This document shows, one piece after another, positions 39,597 through 56,182 of a stretch of DNA of 64,000 nt. The stretch is taken from contig NZ_RCDC01000006.1 of assembly GCF_003651185.1 (NCBI RefSeq), positions 1-64,000 of the forward strand, in the 5' to 3' direction. This DNA comes from Stenotrophomonas rhizophila. GTDB taxonomy: Bacteria; Pseudomonadota; Gammaproteobacteria; Xanthomonadales; Xanthomonadaceae. Under the pieces are notes generated by a model. The model made no database searches, had not been told where the DNA came from, and saw only the letters and a list, made by a program, of their open reading frames with translations. The translations under genes and the position numbers were made by a program. Numbering within the stretch: position 1 is the stretch's first letter; the number at the start of each line of letters is the position of its first letter.

Positions 39597-40898
39597 TCAG
39601 CCCGGGTGATCGCGGCGCGGGAACATGTAGATCACCGCACCGACGGCGAACGCGATGCCCGCCGCAGCAATGTTCTGCCAGCTCGCACTGGCGAACAGGG
39701 CCAGGCACAACACCAGCGCCAGGATCGGAATCAACGGGCCACCCGGCAGCTTCAGTGCACCCGGGCGATCACGGAAACGACGCGCCAGCACCAGCACCGC
39801 GGCGGCCGTGCCGATGTAGGCGAACAGGCGCGTGGTCATCGACAACAGCGCCAGCTGCACGAACGAACCGGACAACGCCAGCGCCAGCGCGATCAGGCCC
39901 TGCGCGATGATCGCCGCCGCCGGTGTGCGCAAGCGCGGGTGCACCTGGGCCAGGATCTTCGGCCCGTAGCCATCGCGTGCCAAGGCGAACAGGAAGCGCG
40001 GGCCCATCATCATCGTGTTGCTGTTGGTGCCGAGGATGGAGATCGTCGCGCCCACCGTCAGGATCAAGGCGAGCGTGAGTCCACCGAAGCTGGCGGCGGC
40101 ATCGGCCAGCGGCGTCGGCGAGCTGGCCAACCCGGCCAGCGTGCCCTGCGCGATGAACTGCACCGCGCCGTAGATCACGGTGACGGTGATGATCATGGTG
40201 ATCAACGCGAACGGAATATCGCGGCGCGGGTTCTTGTACTCGCCGGCGGCGGCCGGAATGTTCTCGAAGCCGGCGTAGGCATACAGCAGCAGCAGCGCGG
40301 CTTCGCCCATGCGCTGCAGATCGTGCGGGTCCGGGCGCACGCCGGAGAAGGCCAGATCGGTATCGACGTAGAACACGCCGATCGCCACGAACAGTAGCAG
40401 CGGCAGCAGCTTGCCGATCACCAGAATCACCCCCGTGCGTGCCGCCGAGCGCACGCCGGCCACGTTCACCGCAGTGAGGAAACCGAGCGAGACGACGATG
40501 ATCGCGACGCGGCCGATGTCATGCCCGGCCCACGGCCAGAAGCGTGCCACCGCATCGGCCAGTGCATTGCTGAGCGCGGCGGCGGAGCTGATGCGGGTCA
40601 GCCAGATCATCCAGCCGATCTCGAACCCGGCAAACCGACCGAACGCCTCACGCGCATACAGATAGCTGCCACCGGGCTCGTCGAAGTAGCTGGCGGCCTG
40701 CGCATAGCAGAGCACCAGCAGCGCGACCACGATGCCGGCGGCGACCACGCCCCACAGGCTGAAGGGGCCGAGCAGGGCAACGGTGGCGGCCGGCAGCAGG
40801 TAGATGCCACTGCCGATCACATCGTTGATCGAGAGCCCGACGATCTGCCAGCGGCTGACCGCGCGTTCGAGCTGCGGATCCGGCGGTGCGGTACTCAC
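39597..40898 (-). CDS. APC family amino-acid permease
   Basis: This 433-residue inner-membrane protein has about twelve helices. The APC pattern is seen in the first helix (GLSINDVIGSGIYLLPAA, with the substrate-backbone-binding GSG) and in AYAGFENIPAAAGEYKNPRRD. The GTG start overlaps the stop of the upstream gene (GTGA), showing tight coupling, and is preferred over a GTG 33 bp earlier. As the only inner-membrane transporter of the cell-wall peptide cluster, it is the candidate importer of the released amino acids or small peptides. Substrate is inferred from context only. Confidence 0.9.
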   Translation of the reverse strand: MSTAPPDPQLERAVSRWQIVGLSINDVIGSGIYLLPAATVALLGPFSLWGVVAAGIVVALLVLCYAQAASYFDEPGGSYLYAREAFGRFAGFEIGWMIWLTRISSAAALSNALADAVARFWPWAGHDIGRVAIIVVSLGFLTAVNVAGVRSAARTGVILVIGKLLPLLLFVAIGVFYVDTDLAFSGVRPDPHDLQRMGEAALLLLYAYAGFENIPAAAGEYKNPRRDIPFALITMIITVTVIYGAVQFIAQGTLAGLASSPTPLADAAASFGGLTLALILTVGATISILGTNSNTMMMGPRFLFALARDGYGPKILAQVHPRLRTPAAAIIAQGLIALALALSGSFVQLALLSMTTRLFAYIGTAAAVLVLARRFRDRPGALKLPGGPLIPILALVLCLALFASASWQNIAAAGIAFAVGAVIYMFPRRDHPG

Positions 40899-41653
40899 TG
40901 CACGGTCCCCGCCAGTACGGGCAGTTGCCACTCGGCCTGCAGGCGCTGGTACTCCGCACGCGGCAGCAGCACGAAGCGCGGCCGCGCGCTGGCATTCAAC
41001 CAGGCCAGCAGCGTGGTCATCCGTGCAGGCTCCATCGCGGTGCAGCCGGCGGTGGCCTCACCGGGCGCGCGCCACAGGTGGGCGAAGATGCAGCTGCCAC
41101 GGCCGGGCGTGGCCCTGGGGTTGTGCTCGATGACGAAGCCCTCGCGGTAGCGCACGTCGCCCTTGTTGTGCAGGTCCAGTCGCATCGGCTCGGTCGAGCC
41201 CTCCACGGCCTCGGCGCCGACCACCTCCGCATCGACGATGCGGTTGTAGTACGGCGAATCCGGTACATCCATGCAGTAGCTGGTATCGCGCATCGGCTGG
41301 TAGGGCAGGCCACTGGTGACGCCGGGCGCATACCCGAACGCCGGGCCGATCGCGAAGATGCCGGCCGGGCTGCGGCCGTCGCCTTCCTGCTTCTGCGGGG
41401 CTGCGGACTGGGCCGGGTGCAATCCTTCGCCCCACGCGCTGCCGCTGCGGCCCACGGCCACATCGAAGGCGGCGCCATGTGGCTGCCAGCCCGTGTCGGT
41501 GCGCTCGAAAGCCTGCAGCCTGCCCTGGGTGGCCTCCCAGCCTTCGGTGGTGACCACGACCAGCTGCGTGCTGCCCTCCAGCGTGGCGGCGAAAACGGGC
41601 GCGCTCACGACCAGCAACAAGGCGGCGGTGACGGAACGGAACAGCGACATCAT
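40895..41653 (-). CDS. Exported L,D-transpeptidase-family protein (YkuD-like)
   Basis: This 252-residue protein has a signal peptide (MMSLFRSVTAALLLVVSAPVFA). The L,D-transpeptidase signature is present near the end: the catalytic-site His in CIFAHLWRAP and the nucleophile Cys in ATAGCTAM (around residue 204). Upstream regions RSPAGIFAIGPAFGYAPG and YYNRIVDAEVVG fit the subgroup of single-domain exported enzymes (COG3786-like). It acts on the L,D bond of peptidoglycan stems; in this operon a trimming (carboxypeptidase-like) role is as possible as cross-linking. It lies 18 bp after the RpiR gene, and its stop overlaps the permease start. Confidence 0.8.
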   Translation of the reverse strand: MMSLFRSVTAALLLVVSAPVFAATLEGSTQLVVVTTEGWEATQGRLQAFERTDTGWQPHGAAFDVAVGRSGSAWGEGLHPAQSAAPQKQEGDGRSPAGIFAIGPAFGYAPGVTSGLPYQPMRDTSYCMDVPDSPYYNRIVDAEVVGAEAVEGSTEPMRLDLHNKGDVRYREGFVIEHNPRATPGRGSCIFAHLWRAPGEATAGCTAMEPARMTTLLAWLNASARPRFVLLPRAEYQRLQAEWQLPVLAGTVQ

Positions 41654-41671
41654 CGTGGCGGACTCCAGGGA

Positions 41672-42520
41672 TCAGCTGTCGATCAGGTGTTCGATCCGTT
41701 CCAGGTTCACCCCGAGCTGGCGGTGGCGGTCCGGGTTGGCGTGGCACAGCAGGACGAAGACAACATCCAGCAGGGACTGCAATGAGGAACGGTACAGCAG
41801 TTGCGCCACGTGCGGCGCCGGGTCGTGGGCGCACAGCACCAGGCTGGCATCGGCATGCGCGCGCAGCGGGTTGGCGCTGTGGCGGGTGATCGAGACCACC
41901 TTGCCGCCCATGTCCTGGAACTGGCGCGACAGCTGGAACAACTGCGGCAGCTTGCCGAACTCGGAAAACACCAGCATTGCATCCCCGGGTCGCGCGGCCG
42001 AGAGGTTGGCCATCATCAGGATCGGGTCGGCGTGGTGCACGGTGAGCATGCCGAGCAGCGACAGCCGCATGGCGAACTCACGCGCGTACAGGCCGTCATC
42101 GCCCAACCCGTAGACGAACACCTTGGGCGCCCCGTCGATCAGCTGCACGATGGCTTCGATGTCGGCCTGAGGATTGGCCAGCCAGGTTTCTTCTTCGGCG
42201 GCGGCCTTGCTTGCGCGCAGCCGCTCGGCGATCTGGGTGAAGCCGTCGGCCGCCTCCGGCGCGGGTGGCCGGCTGTGCGGGTCATTGCCGGCGCGCGCGA
42301 CAGCCTCGCCGATGGAGTACTTGAGGTCCGGGTAGCCCTTGAAGCCGAGCTTCTGGCTGAACTTGACCACGCTGGACTGGCTGATCCCCAATGCACTGGC
42401 CAACTGCTGGGAGGAGTAATCGCGCAGGAGGTGGGCGTTGTCGAGGATGAAGTCGGCGATGCGACGTTCGATCGCCGACATGTGGTCACGCTCGGAGCGG
42501 ATTTTCACCAGGGGCGGCAT
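41672..42520 (-). CDS. MurR/RpiR family transcriptional regulator
   Basis: This 282-residue regulator has an N-terminal RpiR helix-turn-helix (ERRIADFILDNAHLLRDYSS, then LASALGISQSSVVKFSQKLG) and a C-terminal SIS domain (KVFVYGLGDDGLYAREF, DAMLVFSEFG) that binds a sugar-phosphate-like ligand. The ATG was chosen over a GTG two codons upstream. It sits inside the operon it probably controls, 10 bp after the epimerase gene. Members such as E. coli MurR respond to MurNAc-6-phosphate; which ligand acts here is unknown. AT-rich palindromes at 45114-45158 are candidate binding sites. Confidence 0.92.
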   Translation of the reverse strand: MPPLVKIRSERDHMSAIERRIADFILDNAHLLRDYSSQQLASALGISQSSVVKFSQKLGFKGYPDLKYSIGEAVARAGNDPHSRPPAPEAADGFTQIAERLRASKAAAEEETWLANPQADIEAIVQLIDGAPKVFVYGLGDDGLYAREFAMRLSLLGMLTVHHADPILMMANLSAARPGDAMLVFSEFGKLPQLFQLSRQFQDMGGKVVSITRHSANPLRAHADASLVLCAHDPAPHVAQLLYRSSLQSLLDVVFVLLCHANPDRHRQLGVNLERIEHLIDS

Positions 42521-42530
42521 GGGCACGGGG

Positions 42531-43640
42531 TCAGGACCACCGCCGCGGCGTGATCATGTCCAGCCCACGCACCTCGGTGATGCCCAGCCCGGGCGCATCG
42601 CTGATGGTGATCTCCGATTCGTTGAAGTTGACCCCACCGGTGACCGGGTTGAACTGGCCCAGTGACGGTCCGTCGAGATCCACCTTGGTGATGATGTCGC
42701 TCTTGGCGACGGCCAGGTGCACGGCGGCGGCCACCGAGATGCTCGATTCGATCATGCAGCCGATCATGCACGGCACGCCGTAGATCGCGGCGATGTCGGC
42801 GATGCGGATCGCGTTGGACAACCCGCCGGTCTTCATCAGCTTGATGTTGATGATGTCGGCGGCGCGCTGCTGGATCAGGTCGAATACCTGGCCGGGGTTG
42901 AACACGCTTTCATCGGCCATGACCGGCGTGTTGACGCGATCGGTGACGTATTTCAGGCCACTGATGTCGGCGGCCTTGACCGGCTGCTCCAGCAGCTCCA
43001 GCACCACGCCGGCTTCTTCCAGCGCATGCATCGCGTGCACGGCCTGCTTGGCGGTCCAGCCCTGGTTGGCATCCAGCCGCAGCAGGGCGCGGCCCTGCAC
43101 CGCGGCGTGGATCGCCTTGACCCGTTCGATGTCCAGGCCGATGTCCTTGCCGACCTTGATCTTCAGCGACTCGAACCCGCGTTCGATCGCCGAGAGCGAG
43201 TCGGCCACCATCTTGTCGATGTAGTCCACGCTGATGGTGATGTCGGTGGTGATCACCGGGTCGCCACCACCGAGCATGCGGTACAGCGGCGCGTTGTGCA
43301 GCTGCGCCCACAGATCGTAGATCGCGATCTCCACCGCCGCCTTGGCGCTGGTGTTGCGTTCCATCGAGGTCTGGATCAGCCCGCAGAGCCGGTTGAGGTT
43401 GGCCACGTCCTCGCCGATCAGGCGCGGCTTGATGAAGCTGTCGATGGCCTCGATGATCGAGCCGTGGGTATCGCCGGTGATCACCGCCGTGGCCGGCGCC
43501 TCACCGTAGCCGGTGTGGCCGCTGTCGGTGCGGACCAGCACCACTACGTCTTCGACGGTGTCCACGGTGCGCAGCGCGGTCTTGAACGGGGTCTTCAGCG
43601 GCACGCGCAGCATGCCGAGTTCGATGTCGGTGATCTTCAT
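42531..43640 (-). CDS. Dipeptide epimerase (L-Ala-D/L-Glu type)
   Basis: This 369-residue enolase-superfamily enzyme should convert L-Ala-D-Glu, a murein dipeptide, into L-Ala-L-Glu that peptidases can digest. Motifs in order: capping-domain start LGMLRVPLKTPFKTALRT, catalytic KIK (about residue 160, LKIKVGKD), metal ligands in RLDANQGW, LLEQP and MADES, the second catalytic Lys in NIKLMKTGG, and a DxD near the end (VDLDGPS) that marks the dipeptide-epimerase subgroup. It has no signal peptide. Its ATG directly follows the TGA of the NlpC/P60 gene with no gap, showing translational coupling to the enzyme that would release its substrate. Confidence 0.93.
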   Translation of the reverse strand: MKITDIELGMLRVPLKTPFKTALRTVDTVEDVVVLVRTDSGHTGYGEAPATAVITGDTHGSIIEAIDSFIKPRLIGEDVANLNRLCGLIQTSMERNTSAKAAVEIAIYDLWAQLHNAPLYRMLGGGDPVITTDITISVDYIDKMVADSLSAIERGFESLKIKVGKDIGLDIERVKAIHAAVQGRALLRLDANQGWTAKQAVHAMHALEEAGVVLELLEQPVKAADISGLKYVTDRVNTPVMADESVFNPGQVFDLIQQRAADIINIKLMKTGGLSNAIRIADIAAIYGVPCMIGCMIESSISVAAAVHLAVAKSDIITKVDLDGPSLGQFNPVTGGVNFNESEITISDAPGLGITEVRGLDMITPRRWS

Positions 43641-45086
43641 TCAGGGGGTCTGTGGCCGAAGGCGCTGGATGTTGGTGATGCGGTCGATGTAGCTCACGGT
43701 ATCGCTGGCCATCATCGGCTCCAGCGGAGTGACCGACACGCCGTTGAGATGGGCCTGCACGCGCTTGCCGTCCGCGCCGATCCAGCCGCCGCCGGCGGTG
43801 TCATGGATCAGCCAGGTGCGGCCGTCGATGTGGCCGATCGCCATCATCACGTGGCCGGGGATGTAGACCAGATCGCCGACCTGCAGCTCTTTTACGGCGG
43901 CGTCGCGCGTGGGCTTGCCGTCCTTCGCGGTGAAGGCGATGCGGTCCAGCGCGGGGCTGATCGCCTGCGCGCTGGTGTTGCGTGGCATCAGCACGCCCAC
44001 GCTGCGGTAGATCTCAGAGACGAAGCCGCTGCAGTCGCGGGTGTCGTAATCGTGGCCCCAGCCGTAGCGTTCGCCGAGGAACTTGAAGGCCTGGGTCAGC
44101 AGTGTGCGCGGGGTCAGCGGCAGGTAGTCATCCGCAGTGTCCTGCGAACGCGGCAGCAGCGCCGGGATCAGTGCCAGGCGACCGTCGGCTTCGCGTACCG
44201 GCAGCCGCACCACATGCGCGGCATGTGCCTGCTGGCCATTGACGGTCTTCTCCAGCGGCCAGTCGGCGATCACCGGCAGGCGCACGCCCATGTCCAGTTG
44301 AAGCCGCGACACGCGCGGTTCCTCGGGCGTGTAGGCGGTGAACGCCGTGGCGCCGGTGACCACGCGGTAAGGACCGTGCTGACCGTAGCCGAGCACGGTC
44401 TCCGCATCGCCGATACCCACGAAGCGCCTTTCGATCCACGCCGAATACCGTTCGCTGGTGATGAACAGCCAGCGCCCGTCGGCGCTTTCATGCAGCACCG
44501 CCACCGCATCGCCGGGGAACAGCGCCGACTCCTGGAAGCGGTCGATATCGGTGTCGCCCTGGCTGCTGAACACCCGCAGCGCGGTCGGGAACGCCCGCAG
44601 CGCGGCACGATGGGTCACCAGGCCGTACTGGAGGGCGCGCTGCGCCGGTATCGCGTCCAGCGCGAGATTGGCCAGCGTCTCACTGCGCTGCCCGTCGCTG
44701 ATGGGCTTGCCATCCTGGCCATACAGCGTGCGCTGTGGCCACGTGGACAGGGACTGGATGCTGCCCAGCACTTGAGCGCGGGGCAGCTGCGCCGGCAGCG
44801 CGCGGAGATCGTGGATCGAGGCGTCTTCGGCACGCATGCGGGCGTTCTGCGCGGCGATAGCTGCGCGATCAAGGATCACGCGGTCCGGATCGGGCAGGCG
44901 ATCGGCCCAGAAGCCGGGCGCGAGATAGGCCTCGCGCAGGGCGATGACCCCGCCGAAATCGGCGGCGGGCGCAGCACGCGGCGCCTCGGCCCATGCCGGC
45001 GCCAGCGTCGTCGCAAGGACCGCCGCCAGTAAAGTGCGCGAAAGCCAGCGGGACCGCACGGGGCGGTGGGGGGAAGCCAGGATCAT
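43641..45086 (-). CDS. Exported SH3-NlpC/P60 endopeptidase (gamma-D-Glu-diamino acid type)
   Basis: This 481-residue protein has a signal peptide (cleavage near APAWAEA). Its layout fits the group with an N-terminal stabilising segment (residues about 50-110), two bacterial SH3 domains (about 130-310) and a C-terminal NlpC/P60 domain. The catalytic Cys is in TRDCSGFVSEIYR (around 352) and the His in GHVMMAIGH (around 412). Studied members of this layout cut stem peptides with a free L-Ala between D-Glu and the diamino acid, releasing L-Ala-D-Glu. It is the first gene of the leftward operon. The ATG at 45086 is preceded by GGAGGG; a GTG just before it is an alternative start. Confidence 0.88.
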   Translation of the reverse strand: MILASPHRPVRSRWLSRTLLAAVLATTLAPAWAEAPRAAPAADFGGVIALREAYLAPGFWADRLPDPDRVILDRAAIAAQNARMRAEDASIHDLRALPAQLPRAQVLGSIQSLSTWPQRTLYGQDGKPISDGQRSETLANLALDAIPAQRALQYGLVTHRAALRAFPTALRVFSSQGDTDIDRFQESALFPGDAVAVLHESADGRWLFITSERYSAWIERRFVGIGDAETVLGYGQHGPYRVVTGATAFTAYTPEEPRVSRLQLDMGVRLPVIADWPLEKTVNGQQAHAAHVVRLPVREADGRLALIPALLPRSQDTADDYLPLTPRTLLTQAFKFLGERYGWGHDYDTRDCSGFVSEIYRSVGVLMPRNTSAQAISPALDRIAFTAKDGKPTRDAAVKELQVGDLVYIPGHVMMAIGHIDGRTWLIHDTAGGGWIGADGKRVQAHLNGVSVTPLEPMMASDTVSYIDRITNIQRLRPQTP

Positions 45087-45113
45087 CACGCGGTCACCCT
45101 CCTCGGAAGCATC

Positions 45114-45158
45114 AGGAATATTTATTCCTTTTTTCGACGAAAGCAAGAATAAATTATT
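45114..45158. promoter_or_regulatory. Two AT-rich palindromes in a divergent promoter (candidate RpiR sites)
   Basis: Site 1 (45114-45129) is AGGAATA/TATTCCT with a two-base centre. Site 2 (45148-45158) is AATAA/TTATT with a one-base centre. Their centres are about 32 bp apart, close to three helical turns. They lie in an unusually AT-rich 60-bp stretch between the divergent operons, 28 bp from the leftward start codon. A -35-like TTGACC at 45157-45162 (plus strand) overlaps site 2. Confidence 0.55.
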
Positions 45159-45232
45159 GACCGGCTATCAGGCCCGTGTTACACAGCGATTACCCCACCC
45201 GCACCTTGGGAAGTGTCGCCGTGGATCCTGTG

Positions 45233-46705
45233 ATGCGCAAACCGCGATTGCCTCTGCCTGCTGTCTGGTGCCTGTGCGCTGGTCTGCTGGCAACGCCGTG
45301 GGGGCTGGCCGCTGCGCCGGCCGCGCTGCCGACGGTGATAGCCGGGATCGACCGCGGTGCGTTCGCGCAGGCCGAGGCCGACATCGCGGCGGCGTTGCAG
45401 GATCCGCGCCTGCCGGCAGCCGATCGTCAGGCCTATGCCTTCGAGCGCGAACGCATGCGTCGCATGCGACTGGACTTCACCCTGGACGCGTCGGCTGCCA
45501 AAGCGCAGCTGCGCAAGCAGATCCCCGACCTTCGCGAGGACGAGTTCGCGCGCTGGGAGGCGGCCGGCCTGATCGAACACCTGGATATCGATGGCCAGCG
45601 CCGCTACTTCAAACGCGCGCCGTCCAATCTGTTCCGGATCAGCGCCGAGGCACGCGCGCGGCGGGCACCCGATGCCCCGGTGCCGAAGGATGGCCCTTAC
45701 GAGCACCTGCACCCGCACCACGAGGAGATCGTCGCTGCGGCCCGCGCTACGGGCGCGACCAGCCTGGTGCCGCGCCGCATCGAGGTGACCCAGTCGCTGG
45801 TGGTCAAGCCCGATGCCGTGCCTGCCGGCGAAATCATCCGCGCGTGGATTCCGTACCCGCGCGCCATCCCCGGGCAGCAGCAAGACATCACCTGGATCGC
45901 GGGTTCACCGGCCGGCGCGCAGGTGGCGCCTGAAGCCACCCTGCAGCGGACCGCCTACCTGGAGCGCAAGGCGGTGGCCGGCACGCCCACGGAGTTCCAG
46001 ATCCGCTACGCAGTGACTGTGTACGCCCGGCATATCGAGGTCGATCCGGCCAGGGTCCAGCCCACGCCGCAGGATCCTGCGCTGAAGCCGTACCTCGCCG
46101 AGCAGGCGCCGCACATCGTGTTCACCCCGGCGCTGCGCGCGTTCTCGACGAAGGTAGTCGGGACGGAGACCGATCCGTACCGGATCGTGCAGAAGCTGTT
46201 CGACGCGGTGGACGCCATTCCGTGGGCCGGTGCGCGCGAGTACGCGACGATCGCCAACATCAGCGATTACGCCCTGCACGCCGGCCATGCCGATTGTGGG
46301 CAGCAGACGCTGCTGCTGATCGCCCTGTTGCGCCTGAACGGGATTCCCGCGCGCTGGCAGTCCGGCATGGTCTATTCGGACGATGCGGTCGGCTACAACA
46401 ACCTGCACGACTGGGGCGCGGTGTATCTGGCCCCATATGGCTGGGTGCCGATGGATGTCACCACCGGCCGGCTGGACAGCCCGCAGCCGGCGTTGCGCGA
46501 TTTCTATCTGGGCGGGCTGGATGCCTATCGCATCGCCTTCAACGACGACTACGGCCAGCCGCTGGTGCCAGCCAAGCAGCACGTCCGCTCGGACACGGTG
46601 GATTCCCAGCGCGGTGAGGCCGAGTGGTCCGGCGGCAACCTGTACTTCGATCAATGGAATTACGACGTCCAGTCGCACGTGGTGCCACTGGAGGCAACGC
46701 GGTAA
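45233..46705 (+). CDS. Exported transglutaminase-like (papain-fold) protein
   Basis: This 490-residue protein has a signal peptide (LPAVWCLCAGLLATPWGLAA). The first 200 residues are a helical domain of unknown type. The transglutaminase core is C-terminal: catalytic Cys in GHADCGQQTLLLIALLRLNG (around 355), His in HDWGAVYLAPYGW (around 391) and Asp in MDVTTG. Bacterial members of this fold are often peptidases or amidases. It is the first gene of the rightward operon, ahead of the TonB receptor, so it likely works on the same cell-wall-derived substrate. ATG at 45233 chosen because the signal peptide begins there. Confidence 0.85.
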   Translation: MRKPRLPLPAVWCLCAGLLATPWGLAAAPAALPTVIAGIDRGAFAQAEADIAAALQDPRLPAADRQAYAFERERMRRMRLDFTLDASAAKAQLRKQIPDLREDEFARWEAAGLIEHLDIDGQRRYFKRAPSNLFRISAEARARRAPDAPVPKDGPYEHLHPHHEEIVAAARATGATSLVPRRIEVTQSLVVKPDAVPAGEIIRAWIPYPRAIPGQQQDITWIAGSPAGAQVAPEATLQRTAYLERKAVAGTPTEFQIRYAVTVYARHIEVDPARVQPTPQDPALKPYLAEQAPHIVFTPALRAFSTKVVGTETDPYRIVQKLFDAVDAIPWAGAREYATIANISDYALHAGHADCGQQTLLLIALLRLNGIPARWQSGMVYSDDAVGYNNLHDWGAVYLAPYGWVPMDVTTGRLDSPQPALRDFYLGGLDAYRIAFNDDYGQPLVPAKQHVRSDTVDSQRGEAEWSGGNLYFDQWNYDVQSHVVPLEATR

Positions 46706-46748
46706 ACAGCGGTATCCACGATTCCACATCTGCAGGAGAGAGCAGGGA

Positions 46749-49700
46749 ATGAATGCAAAGCGATTGAAGCGTGCGGCGTTGTACGCCGCGCTGGGGGTGT
46801 GTCTGGGCAGCCTGGTGCCGATAGGCGCCTCGGCACAGAACGTCAGTGGTGCCGTGGCCGGCCGTGCGACGGCCGGTGACCAGGTGACGGTGGTCAGCAA
46901 CGGCACCGGCCTGACCCGCACGGTCACCGCCAGTGCCGATGGCAGCTACCGCCTGGGTCAGTTGCCGGTCGGCGATTACCAGCTGCAGCTCAGCCGTGAT
47001 GGCCAGAAGCTGGGTGAGCCGTTCGCGGTGAGCGTGGCAGTCGGCGGCACCACCACCGTCAATCTGGCCAGCAGCGGTGACGTGGTCAACCTCGATGCGC
47101 TGCAGGTGATCGGTGCCCGCGTGGTCAACCGCGTGGACGTGTATTCCACCGAGACCTCGTTCAACGTCAACCGCCAGGAGCTGTCGCGTCTGCCGGTGGC
47201 GCAGGATCTATCGGCAGTGGCATTGCTGGCACCCGGTGTGGTGGGCGGCAATTCCTCGTTCGGTGGCCTGTCCTTCGCCGGTTCCTCGGTGGCAGAGAAC
47301 GCGGTCTTCATCAACGGCTTGAACGTCACCGACATGTACACCCGTCGTGGCTTCTCCAGCGCGCCGTTCGGCTTCTTCAACGAATTCCAGGTCAAGACCG
47401 GTGGCTACTCGGTGGAATTCGGGCGTTCCACCGGCGGCGTGATCAATGCGGTGACGCGCTCGGGCACCAACGAGTTCCAAGGCGGCGTGGAAGTCACTGC
47501 CGAACCGAGCGCGCTGCGCTCCAGCCCACGTGACCACTTCCATCGCGACGGCACGCCGCATTCCTATGCCAGCCGCGACGACAGCTCGTTCCTGAAGACC
47601 AACGTCTGGGGTTCCGGCCCGATCATCAAGGACAAGCTGTTCCTGTTCGCGATGTATGAAGACCGCGACGACACCGGCCACAACACCTCCTCCGACGCAC
47701 TGAGCTGGTTCAAGAACAAGAGCGACAACGGCTTCTGGGGCGCCAAGCTGGATTGGAACATCAACGACAACCACAGCCTGGCGCTGCTGGCGTTCTCCGA
47801 TGAGGGTGAGATCACCAACGGCGCGTACAACTACGATTGGGATGATGATCAGATCGGTGCGTGGGGCGGCGATTCAGTCACCGAGACCGGTGGCAAGAAC
47901 TGGTCGGCAACCTACACCGGTCACTTCGGCGAGAACTTCACCGCGCGTGCCATGGTGGGCGAAAACAACCAGCGCGCCTTCACCAACTCCTCGCTGGATG
48001 AAGCGTGCAGCCCGGTGTTCACCGACGCCAGCTATGCGTCACGTCTGGGCAAGCTCAACGGCCTGCGCCCGGGCTGCCACCCCACCGGCGCCGCCGTTGC
48101 CGAGCGCGATGACACGCGCGAAGTCGCGCGGTTGGACTTCGAATGGCAGCTGGGCACGCACCTGCTGCGCTTCGGTGTGGACCGCGAGCTGATGACGACC
48201 AAGCAGTCCACGCGGTACCCGGGCCCGACCCAGCTCAGCTACACCGCCTACGTCGCCCGGCCGGGCGATGAAGTGTGGGATGGCGCCAACGCCTATGTGC
48301 CGGCCGGTGTGACCGAGATGCTGCGCGCACGCAATCGCGTGTCCGGCGGCACCTTCGAGACGGAAGCCAACGCGTTCTATCTGGAAGACATCTGGAACAT
48401 CACCCCGAACCTGATGTTGAACCTCGGCGTGCGCTGGGACCGCTTCGAGAACCGCACTGCCGACGGCGATGCCTTCATCAAGATGGACGACCTGATCGCG
48501 CCGCGCTTCGGTTTCTCGTGGGACATGAAGGGCGACGGCAGCACCAAGCTGTTCGGCAACGCCGGCCGCTATTACCTGCCGGTGACCAACAACATCAACG
48601 TCAACTTCGCCGGTGGCCTCACCGACGAGTACTCCTACTACGTGCTCAACGGCTGGCAGCAGCAGGCCAACCCGGTCACCGGTGCGCCGTACATGGCCCC
48701 GGTCATCGGCCAGCAGATCGGCCCGGTCGATACCCGCATGAACACCGGTGCGGCCGACCTGCGCCAGAGCGTGGACAAGGATCTGAAGGCGGTCTACCAG
48801 GACGAGTACATCCTCGGCTTCCAGACCATGATCAACCAGGCCTGGTCGTGGGGCGTCAACGCCACCTACCGCAAGATGGACCGCGCGCTGGATGACATGC
48901 GCATCAACCACACCCCGTGCGGGCCGACCGGCACCACCCTGTGGCCGATCGCCAATCCGGGCGAGAGCCTGACGATCTGGGGCGACTCCAGCATCGGCTG
49001 CGCCACCGAGGGCTGGATCACCATTGATACCTCCAAGGATGGCTACCGCAAGGGCGGCAGCCTGGAGGTGGTGGGCTATTCCAAGCCCAAGCGCACCTAC
49101 AAGGCGCTGGAATTCCAGATCGACCGCGCGTGGGATGAGAAGTGGCTGTTCAACGCGTCCTATCTGTGGTCGCGCAGCGATGGCAACTTCGAAGGTCCGG
49201 TCAATTCGGATACCAACTACGGCGACACCGGCATGGTCCAGCACTGGGATCATCCGTCCAACAACCAGCGCTATGGCCCGCTGTTCAACGACTTCCGCCA
49301 TCAGTTCAAGTTCCGCGCCGCCTACGCGCTGAACGAGCAGTGGTCGTTCGGCACCACGCTGCAGGTGTTGTCCGGTGGCCCGATCACCGCCTTCGGCGTG
49401 ATGTGGCCCAACGACACCGTGGCCGGCGGCAGCACCTCCAGTGAAGGCAGCGGCGGCGGTACCGGCTGGCTGTGCGTGGCCAACTGCTCGGGCGCGTACA
49501 ACCAGCGCCAGTTCGAGTACAGCCCACGCGGCGCCTTCGGTCGCCTGCCGTGGACCTGGACCATGGGCGCCAACGTCACCTGGCGGCTGCCGGTGGAGGG
49601 CATCGACCTGAGCGCACGCCTGTCGGTCTACAACCTGTTCAACAACCAGACCGTCATCAACGTGCACCAGCGTTATGAAGCCCAGCCGGGCCAGGTGCGT

Positions 49701-49775
49701 GAGAACACCTTCAACACCGGCACCCGCTGGCAGGCACCGCGTTACACGCAGCTGATGGTGACCTGGAACTTCTGA
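46749..49775 (+). CDS. Oar-like TonB-dependent outer-membrane receptor
   Basis: This 1008-residue receptor has a signal peptide (cleavage near ASAQN). It carries a carboxypeptidase-regulatory-like beta-sandwich (NVSGAVAGRATAGDQVTV to GDYQLQL), then a plug domain (VNRQELSRLPVAQDLSAVAL, FINGLNVTDMYTRRGFSS, GRSTGGVINAVTRSGTN) and a 22-strand barrel ending in LMVTWNF with a terminal Phe. Oar-type receptors have this fused domain. GGAGAGAG precedes the ATG. It lies between exported enzymes for cell-wall peptides, so uptake of muropeptides is proposed. Specificity cannot be read from the sequence, and no TonB/ExbBD genes are nearby. Confidence 0.9.
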   Translation: MNAKRLKRAALYAALGVCLGSLVPIGASAQNVSGAVAGRATAGDQVTVVSNGTGLTRTVTASADGSYRLGQLPVGDYQLQLSRDGQKLGEPFAVSVAVGGTTTVNLASSGDVVNLDALQVIGARVVNRVDVYSTETSFNVNRQELSRLPVAQDLSAVALLAPGVVGGNSSFGGLSFAGSSVAENAVFINGLNVTDMYTRRGFSSAPFGFFNEFQVKTGGYSVEFGRSTGGVINAVTRSGTNEFQGGVEVTAEPSALRSSPRDHFHRDGTPHSYASRDDSSFLKTNVWGSGPIIKDKLFLFAMYEDRDDTGHNTSSDALSWFKNKSDNGFWGAKLDWNINDNHSLALLAFSDEGEITNGAYNYDWDDDQIGAWGGDSVTETGGKNWSATYTGHFGENFTARAMVGENNQRAFTNSSLDEACSPVFTDASYASRLGKLNGLRPGCHPTGAAVAERDDTREVARLDFEWQLGTHLLRFGVDRELMTTKQSTRYPGPTQLSYTAYVARPGDEVWDGANAYVPAGVTEMLRARNRVSGGTFETEANAFYLEDIWNITPNLMLNLGVRWDRFENRTADGDAFIKMDDLIAPRFGFSWDMKGDGSTKLFGNAGRYYLPVTNNINVNFAGGLTDEYSYYVLNGWQQQANPVTGAPYMAPVIGQQIGPVDTRMNTGAADLRQSVDKDLKAVYQDEYILGFQTMINQAWSWGVNATYRKMDRALDDMRINHTPCGPTGTTLWPIANPGESLTIWGDSSIGCATEGWITIDTSKDGYRKGGSLEVVGYSKPKRTYKALEFQIDRAWDEKWLFNASYLWSRSDGNFEGPVNSDTNYGDTGMVQHWDHPSNNQRYGPLFNDFRHQFKFRAAYALNEQWSFGTTLQVLSGGPITAFGVMWPNDTVAGGSTSSEGSGGGTGWLCVANCSGAYNQRQFEYSPRGAFGRLPWTWTMGANVTWRLPVEGIDLSARLSVYNLFNNQTVINVHQRYEAQPGQVRENTFNTGTRWQAPRYTQLMVTWNF

Positions 49776-49789
49776 TCCGTCCCGTGCGT

Positions 49790-49860
49790 GGCAGGTGCCG
49801 ACAGTGCGTCGGCACCTGCCGTCACCGCCATACGGTAGGTGCCGACCGGTGGTCGGTACG
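49790..49860. repeat. Hairpin plus GTAG-headed repeat after the receptor gene
   Basis: A strong palindrome GGCAGGTGCCGAC/GTCGGCACCTGCC (49790-49820) is followed by a GTAG-headed element (49835-49860, GTAGGTGCCGACC/GGTCGG). They share the core GGTGCCGAC, so both belong to one REP-like family with a core different from that at 6377. They may partly end the receptor transcript or protect its mRNA. Confidence 0.7.
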
Positions 49861-49914
49861 TGCCTTCCACGGGCGGCTTCGGTTGCACGTCCTCCGGTCA
49901 TGACGAGGGAACCC

Positions 49915-51492
49915 ATGCCGTCACGCGCTTCAACACACAGTCGATCCCGCCTTCTCACGCTTGGCTTGGCCTGCACCCTGGCCATCGCCCACAGCGCACG
50001 GGCAGCCGAGCCCACCGACACCTTCAATCGCCTGCTCGATCAGACCGTCGCCCACGAACAGCTGCCGGGCATCGCCATGGCCGTCGTCGACGATGGCAAC
50101 CCCGTCTTCATCGGCACTCGTGGCGAGCGCCGCGCCGGGCAGGGCGAGGCCATCGATGCGGATACCCTGTTCAAGATCGCCTCCAACAGCAAGGCGATGA
50201 CCGCCGCGCTGCTCGCCCGTCTGGTCGACCGCGGTCTCCTGCGCTGGGACGACCCGGTCATCAAGTACCTGCCGCAGTTCCGCATGCACGACCCGTGGGT
50301 CACGCAGCAGATGCAGGTGCGTGATCTGCTGATCCACAACAGCGGCCTGGGCCTTGGCGCGGGCGATCTGATGCTGTGGCCCGAGCCGAACAGGTTCACC
50401 CGCCAGGACATCATCGCCGGGCTGGCCCACCTCAAGCCGGTCACCAGCTTCCGCAGCGGCTATGCCTACGACAACCTGATGTATGTGGTCGCCGGCGAAG
50501 TCGCCGCCGCAGCCGGTGGCAAACCGTACGATCAACTGCTGCGCGAGGAAGTCTTCTCGCCGCTGGGCATGGATCGCTGCCAGGTCGGCGCGTGGTCGGT
50601 CGCAGCGGTGGGCAACGTCGCCCAGCCGCACACGCGGAAGGACGGCCGCAACGTGGTGCGTGGTGCCGATGGTGACACCAGCGCCGATCTGACCTCGATG
50701 GCCGCCGGCGGCATCCGCTGCAGCCTGCGCGACATGACCCGCTGGATGCAGGTGCTGCTCGATCCGGCGCTCGTGCTCGGTTGGCTGAGCACGGCGCAGC
50801 GCCGCGCGCTGTGGACCGCGCACATGCCGATGCCGCTGGGCGAGCGCCAACGCCGCTGGGACAACGCACATGTGTCCGCCTACGGCTACGGCTGGCGCGT
50901 GTCGGATATGGACGGCCAGTGGAAGGTGGCCCACACCGGTACGCTGTCAGGCATGTATTCCTCGCTGGCGCTGCTGCCGGACCGCAAGGTCGGCGTGGTG
51001 ATCCTGATCAACAGCGACGCCGAGGATGCACGCATCGCGCTGATGCAGGCCGCGTTGAAGACCTACACCGCACCGGAGGAGACGGCCGACGTGAGCCACT
51101 ACCTGGCCCTGCTGGGCCAGGAGCGCACTGGCCGCCGCGATGCCGGGCAGGTGCGCCCGGATACCGGCGCGCGCCGGGCCGCCTCGCTTCGCACGACCGC
51201 CGCCGCGCACGGCCGTTATCGCGATCCGTGGCTGGGCGAGGCGCTGCTTTGCCCGGAGCAGGGCGTGCTGCGTTTCAGCGTGGCCAAGTCGCCGATGCTG
51301 CGCGGCCAGGTCATGCAGCTCGGTGAGCGCTGGCTGGTGCAGTGGGATACGCTCGGGGCCGATGCCGAGCCGTGGTTGCAGCTGCAGCCAGGCGCGACGC
51401 CCGCCTTGACCTTGGCCGCGATCGATCCGGAGATCGACTTCAGTTATGACTACCAGGACCTGCACTTCACCCGCACCGGCGATTGCCCGTAG
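49915..51492 (+). CDS. Exported beta-lactamase-fold serine hydrolase
   Basis: This 525-residue protein has a signal peptide (cleavage near HSARA). It belongs to the class C beta-lactamase/D-aminopeptidase/carboxypeptidase group: SxxK is SNSK (around residue 90), YxN is YDN (around 184) and HxG is HTG (around 339). A C-terminal domain of about 130 residues follows the hydrolase core, as in D-aminopeptidase-like enzymes. GAGGGA precedes the ATG at 49915. The context (TonB receptor, VanX) suggests a peptidoglycan DD-peptidase or D-aminopeptidase rather than an antibiotic-resistance enzyme. It overlaps the next gene by 47 bp. Confidence 0.87.
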   Translation: MPSRASTHSRSRLLTLGLACTLAIAHSARAAEPTDTFNRLLDQTVAHEQLPGIAMAVVDDGNPVFIGTRGERRAGQGEAIDADTLFKIASNSKAMTAALLARLVDRGLLRWDDPVIKYLPQFRMHDPWVTQQMQVRDLLIHNSGLGLGAGDLMLWPEPNRFTRQDIIAGLAHLKPVTSFRSGYAYDNLMYVVAGEVAAAAGGKPYDQLLREEVFSPLGMDRCQVGAWSVAAVGNVAQPHTRKDGRNVVRGADGDTSADLTSMAAGGIRCSLRDMTRWMQVLLDPALVLGWLSTAQRRALWTAHMPMPLGERQRRWDNAHVSAYGYGWRVSDMDGQWKVAHTGTLSGMYSSLALLPDRKVGVVILINSDAEDARIALMQAALKTYTAPEETADVSHYLALLGQERTGRRDAGQVRPDTGARRAASLRTTAAAHGRYRDPWLGEALLCPEQGVLRFSVAKSPMLRGQVMQLGERWLVQWDTLGADAEPWLQLQPGATPALTLAAIDPEIDFSYDYQDLHFTRTGDCP

Positions 51493-52183
51493 CGCGCTGC
51501 TGCTGGCACTGCTGGCCGGCAGTGCCCACGCGGCAGCGCCAGCGGTGACGATCTCGCCCGCCCGCGATGTGGCTGAGGCCGGACTGGTCGACATCCGCAC
51601 GCTGACACCGGCGATCGAACAGGACATCCGCTACGCCGGCCCCGACAACTTCACTGGCCAGCGCGTGCCCGGCTATGACGCGCCCAAGTGCTATCTGCTC
51701 GCCCCGGCGGCTACTGCACTGGCACAGGTGGAGGCCGACCTGCGTGCGGATGGCTTCGCGCTGCGGCTCTTTGACTGCTACCGCCCGGCCCACGCGGTGA
51801 AGGCCTTCGTCGCCTGGGCACAGGATCCGCACGAGCAGTCGCGCAAGGCGCAGCAGTACCCGGACCTCGACAAGCCCGCCCTGCTCGGTGGCTACATCGC
51901 CGAGACCTCCGGCCACAGCCGCGCTGCCACGGTCGATCTGACCCTGCTCGATTGCCGCACCGGCCCCTGCGCGCCCGTGGACATGGGCACCGACTTCGAT
52001 TTCTTCGGCCCGCGCGCGCATACCGATGCGCCGGAGATCAGCGCGGCGCAGCGCAGCCACCGCCAGCACCTGCGCCAGGCGATGGCGCGGCATGGCTTCG
52101 CCAACTACCCGATGGAGTGGTGGCATTTCACCCTGCAGCCCGAGCCGGCACCGACCACTGCCTACGACGTGCCGGTCCGCTGA
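51446..52183 (+). CDS. VanX/DdpX-type D-Ala-D-Ala dipeptidase
   Basis: This 245-residue exported zinc dipeptidase has a signal peptide (SALLLALLAGSAHA). Zinc and catalytic motifs of the VanX group are complete: SGHSRAATVDLTL with the first His and Asp, then EWWHF with the catalytic Glu and the last His ligand. Earlier, DIRYAGPDNFTG and LFDCYRPAHA are also family traits. The start lies inside the end of the serine hydrolase gene, which implies coupled translation. It would free D-Ala from D-Ala-D-Ala or related ends. Without vanHA genes nearby, a resistance role is unlikely; a catabolic role fits. Confidence 0.93.
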   Translation: MTTRTCTSPAPAIARSALLLALLAGSAHAAAPAVTISPARDVAEAGLVDIRTLTPAIEQDIRYAGPDNFTGQRVPGYDAPKCYLLAPAATALAQVEADLRADGFALRLFDCYRPAHAVKAFVAWAQDPHEQSRKAQQYPDLDKPALLGGYIAETSGHSRAATVDLTLLDCRTGPCAPVDMGTDFDFFGPRAHTDAPEISAAQRSHRQHLRQAMARHGFANYPMEWWHFTLQPEPAPTTAYDVPVR

Positions 52184-52226
52184 GGCGCACCGCTACACTG
52201 TGCGCTGACCGCCGGATCGGACCACG

Positions 52227-52604
52227 ATGAACCTGCCGCTGCACGTTGGATTGCTGGGAACGCTGGAGGCAGGGCTGATCGCGCTGTTGGTCGGGCTGCT
52301 GGTGTATGCGCTGTGGCATCGCCTGTGCCGCTGGGCAGGCTGGACCGACGGGCATGCGATCGGCTGGGCCTGCGTGATCGCGGTGGTGGCCTCGGCCGGC
52401 ATCGATGCGTGGAATCTCTTCTATATGGGCATGATGCGGCTGGAGTCGCCGCTGTATGCGCGGTTGTTCCTCGCCGGTATCCATGATCCGAACGAGCTGG
52501 GCTCGCGCGTGGTGCTCGAAGTGGCCGGTGCGATCGGCGGTGTGGCGCTGGGGTGGCTTTTGTTCAGCTCCCGCTCAGGCGAAAAAAACAGCAACACCGC
52601 GTGA
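52227..52604 (+). CDS. Small membrane protein of unknown function
   Basis: This 125-residue protein has three or four hydrophobic segments (LEAGLIALLVGLLVYALW, AIGWACVIAVVASAGI, VVLEVAGAIGGVALGWLLF). I recognise no family. It lies 43 bp after the dipeptidase gene and may be the last gene of that operon. No terminator is seen before the following gene-free 219 bp, which should hold the promoter of the EF-hand gene. Confidence 0.7.
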   Translation: MNLPLHVGLLGTLEAGLIALLVGLLVYALWHRLCRWAGWTDGHAIGWACVIAVVASAGIDAWNLFYMGMMRLESPLYARLFLAGIHDPNELGSRVVLEVAGAIGGVALGWLLFSSRSGEKNSNTA

Positions 52605-52823
52605 GATTGCGTTCGCATCCGGTTAAATGCCCGGCCAATGAATGGGCGTGTTACCAACTGCTCACCTGCGGCTAACCACTGCGGTAATGCACACGTTCGC
52701 GCAGGTGGTTAAGGCCGCGTGCGCAGCGCGGTCGAGGGGCAATATCGATTCACAAACGGGGTGGCAGTGTGGGGCCGTGCGGAAACAACAGGCCGCGCAA
52801 TACCTACCAAGGAGACCACCCCA

Positions 52824-53240
52824 ATGACTACTCGCATCCGCAAGCCCCTGATCGCCCTGATCGTCGCCGCAGGCAGTGTGCTGGCCATGCCGGCGATGGC
52901 CCAGTCGGCACAGCACAGTGCCGCGCAGGCGCAGAATCAGGCCGCCCAGGCACAGCAGGCGGCGGCGCAGGCCGGTGACGCAGCCGATACCGCGGCCAAT
53001 GCCGCTGCGCAGGCCTCCGCGCAGGCCAATGGTGGCGGTGGCCAGACGTGGGCCAGCGTCGATATCGACGGGAACGGCACCATCAGCAAGGCCGAGGCGC
53101 AGGTCAACGCGGGCCTTGCCCAGGTGTTCGACCAGGCCGATACCAACAAGGACGGCGAGCTCTCGCCGGATGAATACAAGGCGTATGTGGCCGCCCAGCA
53201 GGGCAAGGCCGCCGATAACGGCGCCCAGCAGAGCAAGTAA
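52824..53240 (+). CDS. Exported EF-hand protein with Ala/Gln-rich helix
   Basis: This 138-residue protein has a signal peptide (IALIVAAGSVLAMPAMAQ). A long Ala/Gln-rich stretch with repeated AQ steps (about residues 25-70), likely helical or coiled coil, precedes two canonical EF-hand loops: DIDGNGTISKAE and DTNKDGELSPDE. Each has the D-x-D/N-x-N/D-G pattern for calcium. The start ATG has AAGGAG upstream. Small exported EF-hand proteins may buffer calcium or act as sensors in the periplasm; the role is open. Confidence 0.8.
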   Translation: MTTRIRKPLIALIVAAGSVLAMPAMAQSAQHSAAQAQNQAAQAQQAAAQAGDAADTAANAAAQASAQANGGGGQTWASVDIDGNGTISKAEAQVNAGLAQVFDQADTNKDGELSPDEYKAYVAAQQGKAADNGAQQSK

Positions 53241-56114: not shown

Positions 56115-56182
56115 AGCCGGCCAGCGGCCGGCACTACCCGGAAACAGAACGTCCCGGCAGGTACCGACCGTCGGTCGGTACC
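56115..56182. repeat. SMAG repeat plus adjacent palindrome
   Basis: An inverted SMAG copy (56115-56137) is followed by a perfect palindrome GGTACCGACC/GGTCGGTACC (56160-56182). The latter core resembles the GTAG-type repeat at 49835. They lie between convergent genes. Confidence 0.75.

Follow-up and report, generated by a model that had tools for sequence, protein, structure and literature searches.

A divergent gene cluster of Stenotrophomonas rhizophila likely to catabolize murein peptides and carrying a variable TonB-dependent receptor

The Bacillus YkfB-YkfC pair consists of an L-Ala-D/L-Glu epimerase and an SH3b-NlpC/P60 gamma-D-Glu-diamino acid endopeptidase encoded side by side; of the two B. 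cereus YkfBC proteins, the peptidase is exported, whereas the epimerase is cytoplasmic, the gene pair also occurs in Listeria, Acidobacterium, Solibacter, Bacteroides, and Gramella, and the available text of that description names no outer-membrane receptor (PMC2954226). This study concerns a gene cluster of Stenotrophomonas rhizophila, located at positions 39597-52604 of a 64,000-nucleotide stretch of DNA (the whole of which is referred to as the window), which contains such an adjacent pair but, unlike Bacillus, adds a TonB receptor, an RpiR regulator, a permease that is not of the ABC type, and further enzymes of the YkuD-fold, transglutaminase-like, SxxK, and VanX kinds. The murein tripeptide recycling of Escherichia coli through MpaA and YcjG is cytoplasmic and linked to AmpG. 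It also ends in the epimerization of L-Ala-D-Glu, although, according to the text available, the metallo-carboxypeptidase MpaA takes the place of an NlpC/P60 enzyme (PMC2954226). The YkfC protein of Chlamydia trachomatis is likewise an NlpC/P60 enzyme that cuts the gamma-D-Glu-meso-diaminopimelate bond of free stem peptides, but it is predicted to be cytosolic, uptake through Opp is proposed, and the main text makes no mention of TonB (PMC9928106). In Caulobacter, N-acetylglucosamine utilization clusters couple a TonB receptor to the catabolism of a cell-wall (and chitin) component, whereas these clusters are based on a sugar, a phosphotransferase system, and GntR, and the words "epimerase" and "NlpC" are absent from the main text (PMC13046382).

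No paper describing a divergent receptor-based unit of this kind was found in searches confined to open-licence literature. AmpG, Opp-MppA, and YejBEF-YepA sit in the inner membrane. These are the importers of cell-wall pieces named by a 2026 review (PMC13209645), and, in the text available, neither this review nor PMC3551730 names a TonB receptor for muropeptides. A preliminary description of the cluster, made from the DNA letters and their translations, knew of recycling sets with an epimerase and an amidase but of none built on a TonB receptor with all these peptidases; the NlpC-epimerase pair itself is already published. What is new is a single divergent unit that combines this pair with RpiR, L,D- and D,D-acting enzymes, and a TonB receptor.

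The cluster is formed by two divergent operons with one intergenic region between them, the arrangement on which the preliminary description based its single shared promoter region. The minus arm carries, in order, the NlpC/P60 peptidase, the epimerase, RpiR, the YkuD-fold enzyme, and an APC permease, neighbouring genes overlapping or being 0 to 18 bases apart, and the plus arm carries the transglutaminase-like enzyme, an Oar-type TonB receptor, the SxxK hydrolase, the VanX-type dipeptidase, and a 125-amino-acid membrane protein. Pfam found every protein family claimed earlier in its place (AA_permease_2, YkuD, HTH_6 with SIS, MR_MLE, SH3_6 with NLPC_P60, Transglut_core, CarboxypepD_reg with Plug and OMP_b-brl_4, Beta-lactamase, and Peptidase_M15); the NlpC/P60 protein, said to have SH3 domains, was reported with one. 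An N-terminal hydrophobic stretch was observed in the YkuD-fold, NlpC/P60, transglutaminase-like, receptor, SxxK, and VanX-type proteins and in neither RpiR nor the epimerase, and the permease is polytopic. This hydropathy heuristic, applied without a signal-peptide predictor, agrees with the earlier statement that only the epimerase, regulator, and permease lack export signals. We consider it quite likely that the cluster is a periplasmic murein-peptide catabolic system of the Ykf type under one RpiR regulator, transferred to the periplasm and linked with uptake by TonB. The link with murein itself can be held with high confidence, and the import of murein fragments by the receptor appears fairly likely from its genomic context.

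Comparison with related genomes was based on a locus set collected with the epimerase as bait, namely the 80 best among 506 relatives of the epimerase found in GTDB genomes (L001-L080), to which 20 more distant loci of 20 kb each were added. Gene counts per locus refer to the 59 of the best 80 that are at least 19 kb long, the 21 shorter loci being excluded, and a gene was counted as present if at least half of the query was found on the expected strand. These 59 long loci represent close relatives (Stenotrophomonas, Pseudoxanthomonas, some Xanthomonas, Luteimonas, and Frateuria); the loci closest to that of the source genome (4.44 Mb) include those of S. rhizophila BIGb0145 and of a strain bearing the label S. 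maltophilia, with the epimerase 99% identical. The gene order recurs in the relatives and is thus more than a chance arrangement: the NlpC and RpiR genes were present in all 59 loci, followed by the genes for the YkuD-fold enzyme (57), the Oar receptor (53), the SxxK hydrolase (53), the transglutaminase-like enzyme (51), the VanX-type enzyme (48), the APC permease (42), and the small membrane protein (39), the last being the final plus-arm gene (52227-52604, plus strand), which has no Pfam match. One locus of the set, L008, is a contig titled Bacillus subtilis SK7B5 whose epimerase is 96% identical and groups inside Stenotrophomonas, and it is probably a contaminated or mislabelled record.

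Co-occurrence was also observed across 149 genomes of the family. An NlpC protein (E <= 1e-40) was found in 90 of the 90 genomes with the epimerase (E <= 1e-60) and in 8 of the 59 without it, and the transglutaminase-like protein in 69 of those 90 versus none of the 59; in G046 and G106, epimerase and NlpC match are far apart. Given the shared phylogeny of the genomes, p values for such associations are indicative only. A sample of 369 genomes of the class contained the epimerase (E <= 1e-70) in 4, all from the window's own family and with the source genome included, and a sample of 398 genomes of the phylum contained it (E <= 1e-60) in 11.

The cytoplasmic dipeptide epimerase (42531-43640, minus strand) is of the L-Ala-D/L-Glu type, and the best match of its residues 1-355 in a PDB sequence search was 1jpm, the B. 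subtilis L-Ala-D/L-Glu epimerase. The DxD motif, already pointed out in the preliminary description, was kept in all 100 loci, reading DLD or DFD (86 were matched by the pattern, and the remaining 14 are listed with DLD), the KxK motif also in 100, and the K268 and R24 motifs in 99 each, L081 having TAVR instead of the latter. We take the KxK motif and the Lys to stand on opposite barrel strands, the DxD motif to hold the dipeptide amine, and Arg24 to meet the Glu side chain. The exported NlpC/P60 peptidase with its SH3b part (43641-45089, minus strand; Pfam SH3_6 and NLPC_P60; best PDB match 3m1u) is, judging from its residues, a probable gamma-D-Glu-diamino acid endopeptidase. Cys353, His413, and His429 of the catalytic triad and Tyr342, Trp344, Asp352, and Ser354 of the S1 site were invariant in 33 aligned rows, the Cys-side residues being aligned to 3h41 and both histidines placed by motif only, and the Y-x-W..DCS pattern was present in 94 of 96 loci. 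The invariant S1 residues are the equivalents of Tyr226, Trp228, Asp237, and Ser239 of B. cereus YkfC, which, according to the text available, mark the binders of X-L-Ala-gamma-D-Glu (PMC2954226).

Among the remaining exported enzymes, the YkuD-fold protein (40895-41653, minus strand) has a weak Pfam YkuD match (24.7 bits; cut-off 23.4), and C188, H192, and C204 were invariant in 43 rows. In a structural comparison, its model (predicted local distance difference test, pLDDT, 89.6) gave Z scores of 12.9 with Pgp2, 12.7 with Csd6, 11.1 with B. subtilis YkuD, 10.7 with Bd1075, and at most 10.4 with other L,D-transpeptidases; Pgp2, Csd6, and Bd1075 took ranks 1-3 and 6, at 15-18% identity over the aligned part. 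We take Pgp2 and Csd6 to be L,D-carboxypeptidases, and the nearness of the fold to these two argues for hydrolysis and against cross-linking; the modelled enzyme is thus a probable L,D-carboxypeptidase. Pgp2, Csd6, and Bd1075 are cell-shape enzymes acting on the sacculus, whereas the enzyme described here sits in a catabolic operon. The exported VanX-type D-Ala-D-Ala dipeptidase (51446-52183, plus strand; Pfam M15 147.1 bits) matched VanX 1r44 (E 7.5e-40) and aligned with it at the metal and catalytic residues (EWWH in 64/65, DxYRP in 65/65, and SGHSR..D in 61/65 loci), presumably the Zn ligands His, Asp, and His and the catalytic Glu and Arg, and it scored under the NCBIfam VanX equivalog cut-off (176.9 bits versus 320). 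The exported SxxK serine hydrolase (49900-51492, plus strand; Pfam Beta-lactamase 220.3 bits), of the beta-lactamase/AmpH kind, is a candidate D,D-peptidase with the SxxK motif in 70, YxN in 71, and HTG in 71 of 71 loci, and it was below the cut-off of all 25 NCBIfam models listed out of 47 matched. The exported transglutaminase-like cysteine peptidase (45230-46705, plus strand; Pfam Transglut_core; model pLDDT 88) had as its best fold 3isr, a putative cysteine protease, and the pseudomurein endoisopeptidases PeiW and PeiP were far weaker (E about 0.05 to 0.2); therefore, its substrate is not readable from the fold. A PDB sequence search (E <= 1) gave nothing useful for the YkuD-fold and transglutaminase-like proteins.

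The class C-like hydrolase, YkuD, and VanX families are also shared with genes for envelope defence or beta-lactam/glycopeptide resistance, in which the SxxK protein would be a beta-lactamase, the YkuD protein an L,D-transpeptidase bypassing penicillin-binding proteins, and the VanX protein would remove D-Ala-D-Ala. Such a resistance cassette is most improbable: the two L,D-carboxypeptidases outranked the transpeptidases for the YkuD model, the SxxK hydrolase fell below the listed cut-offs, and no VanH- or VanA-type enzyme was present among the ten proteins scanned by Pfam. Moreover, the epimerase, NlpC/P60 peptidase, and permease have no evident role in a resistance set.

Further evidence for the murein link was provided by three loci that carry the core in a different order within the class (L093, L094, and L095, order being meant as taxonomic rank), two of which also contain NamZ and MurQ. 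NamZ and MurQ act on N-acetylmuramic acid (MurNAc), a cell-wall sugar, and MurQ was over its equivalog cut-off in both L093 and L094. L093 encodes an Oar receptor, a protein in which Amidase_2, peptidoglycan-binding, and beta-lactamase (SxxK) parts are fused (L093:4055-6514), RpiR, a fusion of transglutaminase-like and YkuD parts (L093:7572-9698), the epimerase, NlpC, VanX, NamZ, a BadF-type kinase-MurQ fusion, a sodium symporter, and a D-amino-acid-transaminase-like protein below the cut-off of that model. L094 carries DUF819, NlpC, epimerase, YkuD, symporter, kinase, MurQ, NamZ, and RpiR genes, and L095 carries NlpC, epimerase, YkuD, an S13 D-Ala-D-Ala carboxypeptidase, a receptor-sized CarboxypepD_reg protein, and a class IV aminotransferase, with no NamZ or MurQ in the stretch. 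That NamZ, MurQ, and kinase genes accompany this core in two of the loci, together with the L093 fusions, ties the gene set to peptidoglycan, and the fusions also suggest that the same peptides are the substrates of both the transglutaminase-like and the SxxK enzyme. Beside the murein genes of L094 lies a gene for a 432-amino-acid protein that has no Pfam match and whose N-terminus is signal-like (L094:5591-6889). A locus for the utilization of D-amino acids or short peptides, not specific to murein, would account for the VanX enzyme, the D-aminopeptidase-like SxxK hydrolase, the APC/SDF permeases, and the aminotransferase genes of L093 and L095. We regard it as very improbable, because the gamma-D-Glu S1 residues of the NlpC/P60 peptidase and the L-Ala-D/L-Glu type of the epimerase indicate murein, as do NamZ and MurQ in the distant loci.

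The RpiR/MurR-family regulator (41672-42526, minus strand; Pfam HTH_6 and SIS) would bind a two-box operator, TCAATAATTTATTC-N18-GGAATAAATATTCC, at 45115-45160 on the minus strand, in the divergent promoter region upstream of the NlpC gene. With up to 5 mismatches in 28 and box spacings of 26 to 39 allowed, the element was found in 77 of 96 loci, the boxes being 32 bp apart in 76 and 33 in one, and in 72 of the 81 loci with a same-strand RpiR gene downstream. The only five loci with the element and no RpiR gene (L029, L030, L031, L033, and L034) are on contigs that end before or at the RpiR position. The pattern GGAATAANTATTCY (at most 1 mismatch) had one site in the whole genome, and so did a reversed-pattern control; GGAATANNTATTCC (at most 1 mismatch, one strand) had 57 occurrences in the promoter windows (16 kb) versus 6 elsewhere in the loci (1.85 Mb). 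Since the operator lies between the divergent operons, both arms probably answer to RpiR, and we consider its direct control of both very likely. The RpiR gene is reversed in L093 and L094. A promoter search gave one 9-of-12 match on the minus strand, which permits no call of weight. NamZ had no match in the source genome and MurQ only a partial one (27 bits, below cut-off); therefore, the effector cannot be called MurNAc-6-phosphate here.

The receptor (46749-49775, plus strand) is an Oar-type TonB-dependent receptor of type A, with CarboxypepD_reg, Plug, and OMP_b-brl_4 over the Pfam cut-off. The source genome contains no other full-length homologue at E <= 1e-15 and two partial ones, and a PDB sequence search with the receptor returned nothing at E <= 0.001. 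A TonB receptor occupied this slot in all 59 long loci, of the Oar type in 53, because the six without it (L045, L055, L057, L064, L074, and L076) all carry an unrelated plain receptor with plug and barrel. Two GTAG-headed repeat-type palindromes, for which the chance expectation is none, were observed between the receptor and SxxK genes (49791-49863), and a similar one at 56157-56181; they resemble what we take to be known repetitive extragenic palindromic elements of Stenotrophomonas.

Grouping 81 rows of Oar receptors at 55% identity gave 50 of type A, including that of the window, 28 of type B, and three distant rows of neither type, and the S. maltophilia group contains both type A and type B. 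On a quick epimerase and NlpC tree of 70 loci, made with no bootstrap, the receptor type changed at least 13 times, 7 of these changes being forced by well-supported branches. Shuffled receptor labels required 19.6 changes on average, and none of 500 shuffles as few as 13; therefore, the receptor types are clustered on the tree and not randomly scattered. For the 14 closest A/B pairs listed, identity was 49-51% between the receptors, 97-100% between the epimerases, 98-99% for RpiR, 90-94% for NlpC, 85-96% for the transglutaminase-like enzymes, 84-93% for the SxxK hydrolases, and 86-92% for the VanX-type enzymes. Against six type-B rows, the window receptor was 64-82% identical in residues 151-250, a stretch overlapping the Plug match, and 26-66% identical in every later 50-residue block. 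The same residues are the best or nearly the best kept among divergent type-A receptors, so the conservation of the plug is not special to the exchange.

The transglutaminase-like gene seems to travel with the Oar receptor, since, in 91 loci with a receptor, SxxK, or VanX gene beyond NlpC, it accompanied 73 of 77 nearest Oar receptors and 0 of 9 plain ones. It was found there in none of the other five loci, four of which have no receptor on that side (L093, whose receptor lies on the other side, was counted among them) and one a reversed Oar-type receptor. From the sequence comparisons, the simplest reading would be a repeated homologous replacement of the receptor alone, with the ligand side kept and the surface changed. 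We tentatively propose, with slightly less than even confidence, that this is a TonB route through the gammaproteobacterial outer membrane, dedicated to peptidoglycan fragments and with the receptor as a replaceable module. Two Oar types of about 50% identity and an unrelated plain receptor would have been swapped repeatedly beside enzymes, regulator, and operator that stay, with a conserved plug and a divergent outer barrel, as would suit a retained ligand and a surface altered under phage or bacteriocin pressure.

In the proposed mechanism, peptidoglycan fragments too large for porins would enter by the Oar-type receptor, and a periplasmic AmiD-like amidase, unlinked here and clustered in some relatives, would free and open the stem peptides together with the transglutaminase-like and SxxK enzymes. 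The YkuD-fold enzyme, to judge from its fold, would take off D-Ala or D-Ala-D-Ala after diaminopimelate, the VanX-type enzyme, to judge from its family, would split D-Ala-D-Ala, and the NlpC/P60 peptidase, consistent with its active site, would cut gamma-D-Glu-diaminopimelate to yield L-Ala-D-Glu. A product may be imported by the APC permease (in relatives, by an SDF or DUF819 protein), and the cytoplasmic epimerase, whose active site fits this step, would convert L-Ala-D-Glu to L-Ala-L-Glu for peptidases. RpiR on the two-box element would control both operons, perhaps in answer to a MurNAc phosphate. An Amidase_2 gene lies inside the cluster in 21 of 100 loci (a hand count from the listing), and the source genome has a 62% identical, AmiD-like copy elsewhere. 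The inner-membrane transporter slot varies among APC, SDF symporter, and DUF819. The APC-superfamily inner-membrane permease of the window (39597-40931, minus strand; Pfam AA_permease_2 158.8 bits) is a candidate importer of L-Ala-D-Glu or of released amino acids, and the DUF819 membrane protein is a candidate importer of L-Ala-D-Glu. The DUF819 gene was observed directly 5' of NlpC in L091 (6792-7943) and L094 (6996-8159), in these two by Pfam, and also in L072, L080, L090, L096, and L097. To call the system complete, as the preliminary description did, is too strong, because the cluster contains no amidase or sugar branch of its own and the substrate of its permease is a guess; the observation itself is confirmed, and its overall interpretation is partly supported. 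Just 3' of the cluster, a small EF-hand protein is encoded at 52719-53240.

Several observations weigh against a murein-peptide system with its own receptor. The epimerase was below the cut-off of all 18 NCBIfam models matched, with 253.8 bits (cut-off 500) and 111.2 bits (cut-off 343) for the L-Ala-D/L-Glu epimerase models NF041118 and NF011708. In the NlpC/P60 peptidase, an invariant Asn371 stands at the position of YkfC Asp256, which belongs to the free-amine pocket and pairs with SH3b Tyr118, and therefore gives no support for a requirement for free N-terminal L-Ala, so that MurNAc-linked substrate might also be accepted; Y215, outside the 3h41 alignment, is invariant in the SH3b part. Foldseek with the YkuD model returned no match at E <= 0.001, the ranking of carboxypeptidases coming from a second structural comparison, in which B. 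subtilis YkuD outranked Bd1075 and the margin of Pgp2 and Csd6 over B. subtilis YkuD was less than 2 Z and concerned the fold only. The substrates given for the transglutaminase-like and SxxK enzymes are guesses. The source genome has AmpG and an AmpD-like gene for ordinary recycling. The two-box element was absent from 9 of the 81 RpiR loci (L007, L008, L072, L080, L091, L092, L096, L097, and L100), two of which, L007 and L008, may have a misplaced NlpC start. The epimerase of L087 and L088 is alone, and the NlpC match of both genomes lies far off. Further, to our knowledge, no receptor of this clade has a known ligand, and its link to murein is one of context.

Scattered genes without co-regulation, which the preliminary description had named as its counter-case, were not found in close relatives; however, among the 20 distant loci, where receptors were sought by tblastn with our own receptor queries, 13 had a receptor within the stretch and none was found within 20 kb in 7 (L081, L085, L087-L090, and L094), although a very different receptor could be missed by these queries. 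Such receptor-less versions, the two partial Oar-type matches in the source genome, and the fact that we know of no Oar-type receptor elsewhere that serves murein would suit a division of labour in which the periplasmic enzymes degrade the peptides of the cell's own murein turnover and the receptor imports something else wanted under the same conditions, for example, protein-derived peptides. We consider this unlikely, given that a receptor is kept in the same slot of all 59 long loci despite the change of family, that a single operator serves both arms, and that in L093, where NamZ and MurQ are also encoded, the Oar receptor adjoins the amidase-peptidoglycan-binding-SxxK fusion.

If the receptor imports muropeptides, the cluster would provide a TonB-dependent entry for foreign or lost peptidoglycan larger than porins allow and a nutritional link to lytic competition in Lysobacteraceae. 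Muropeptides induce beta-lactamases in Stenotrophomonas, and the system would then also be a possible sink for these inducing muropeptides. The repeated exchange of the receptor beside fixed neighbours constitutes a natural experiment on the drivers of receptor turnover.

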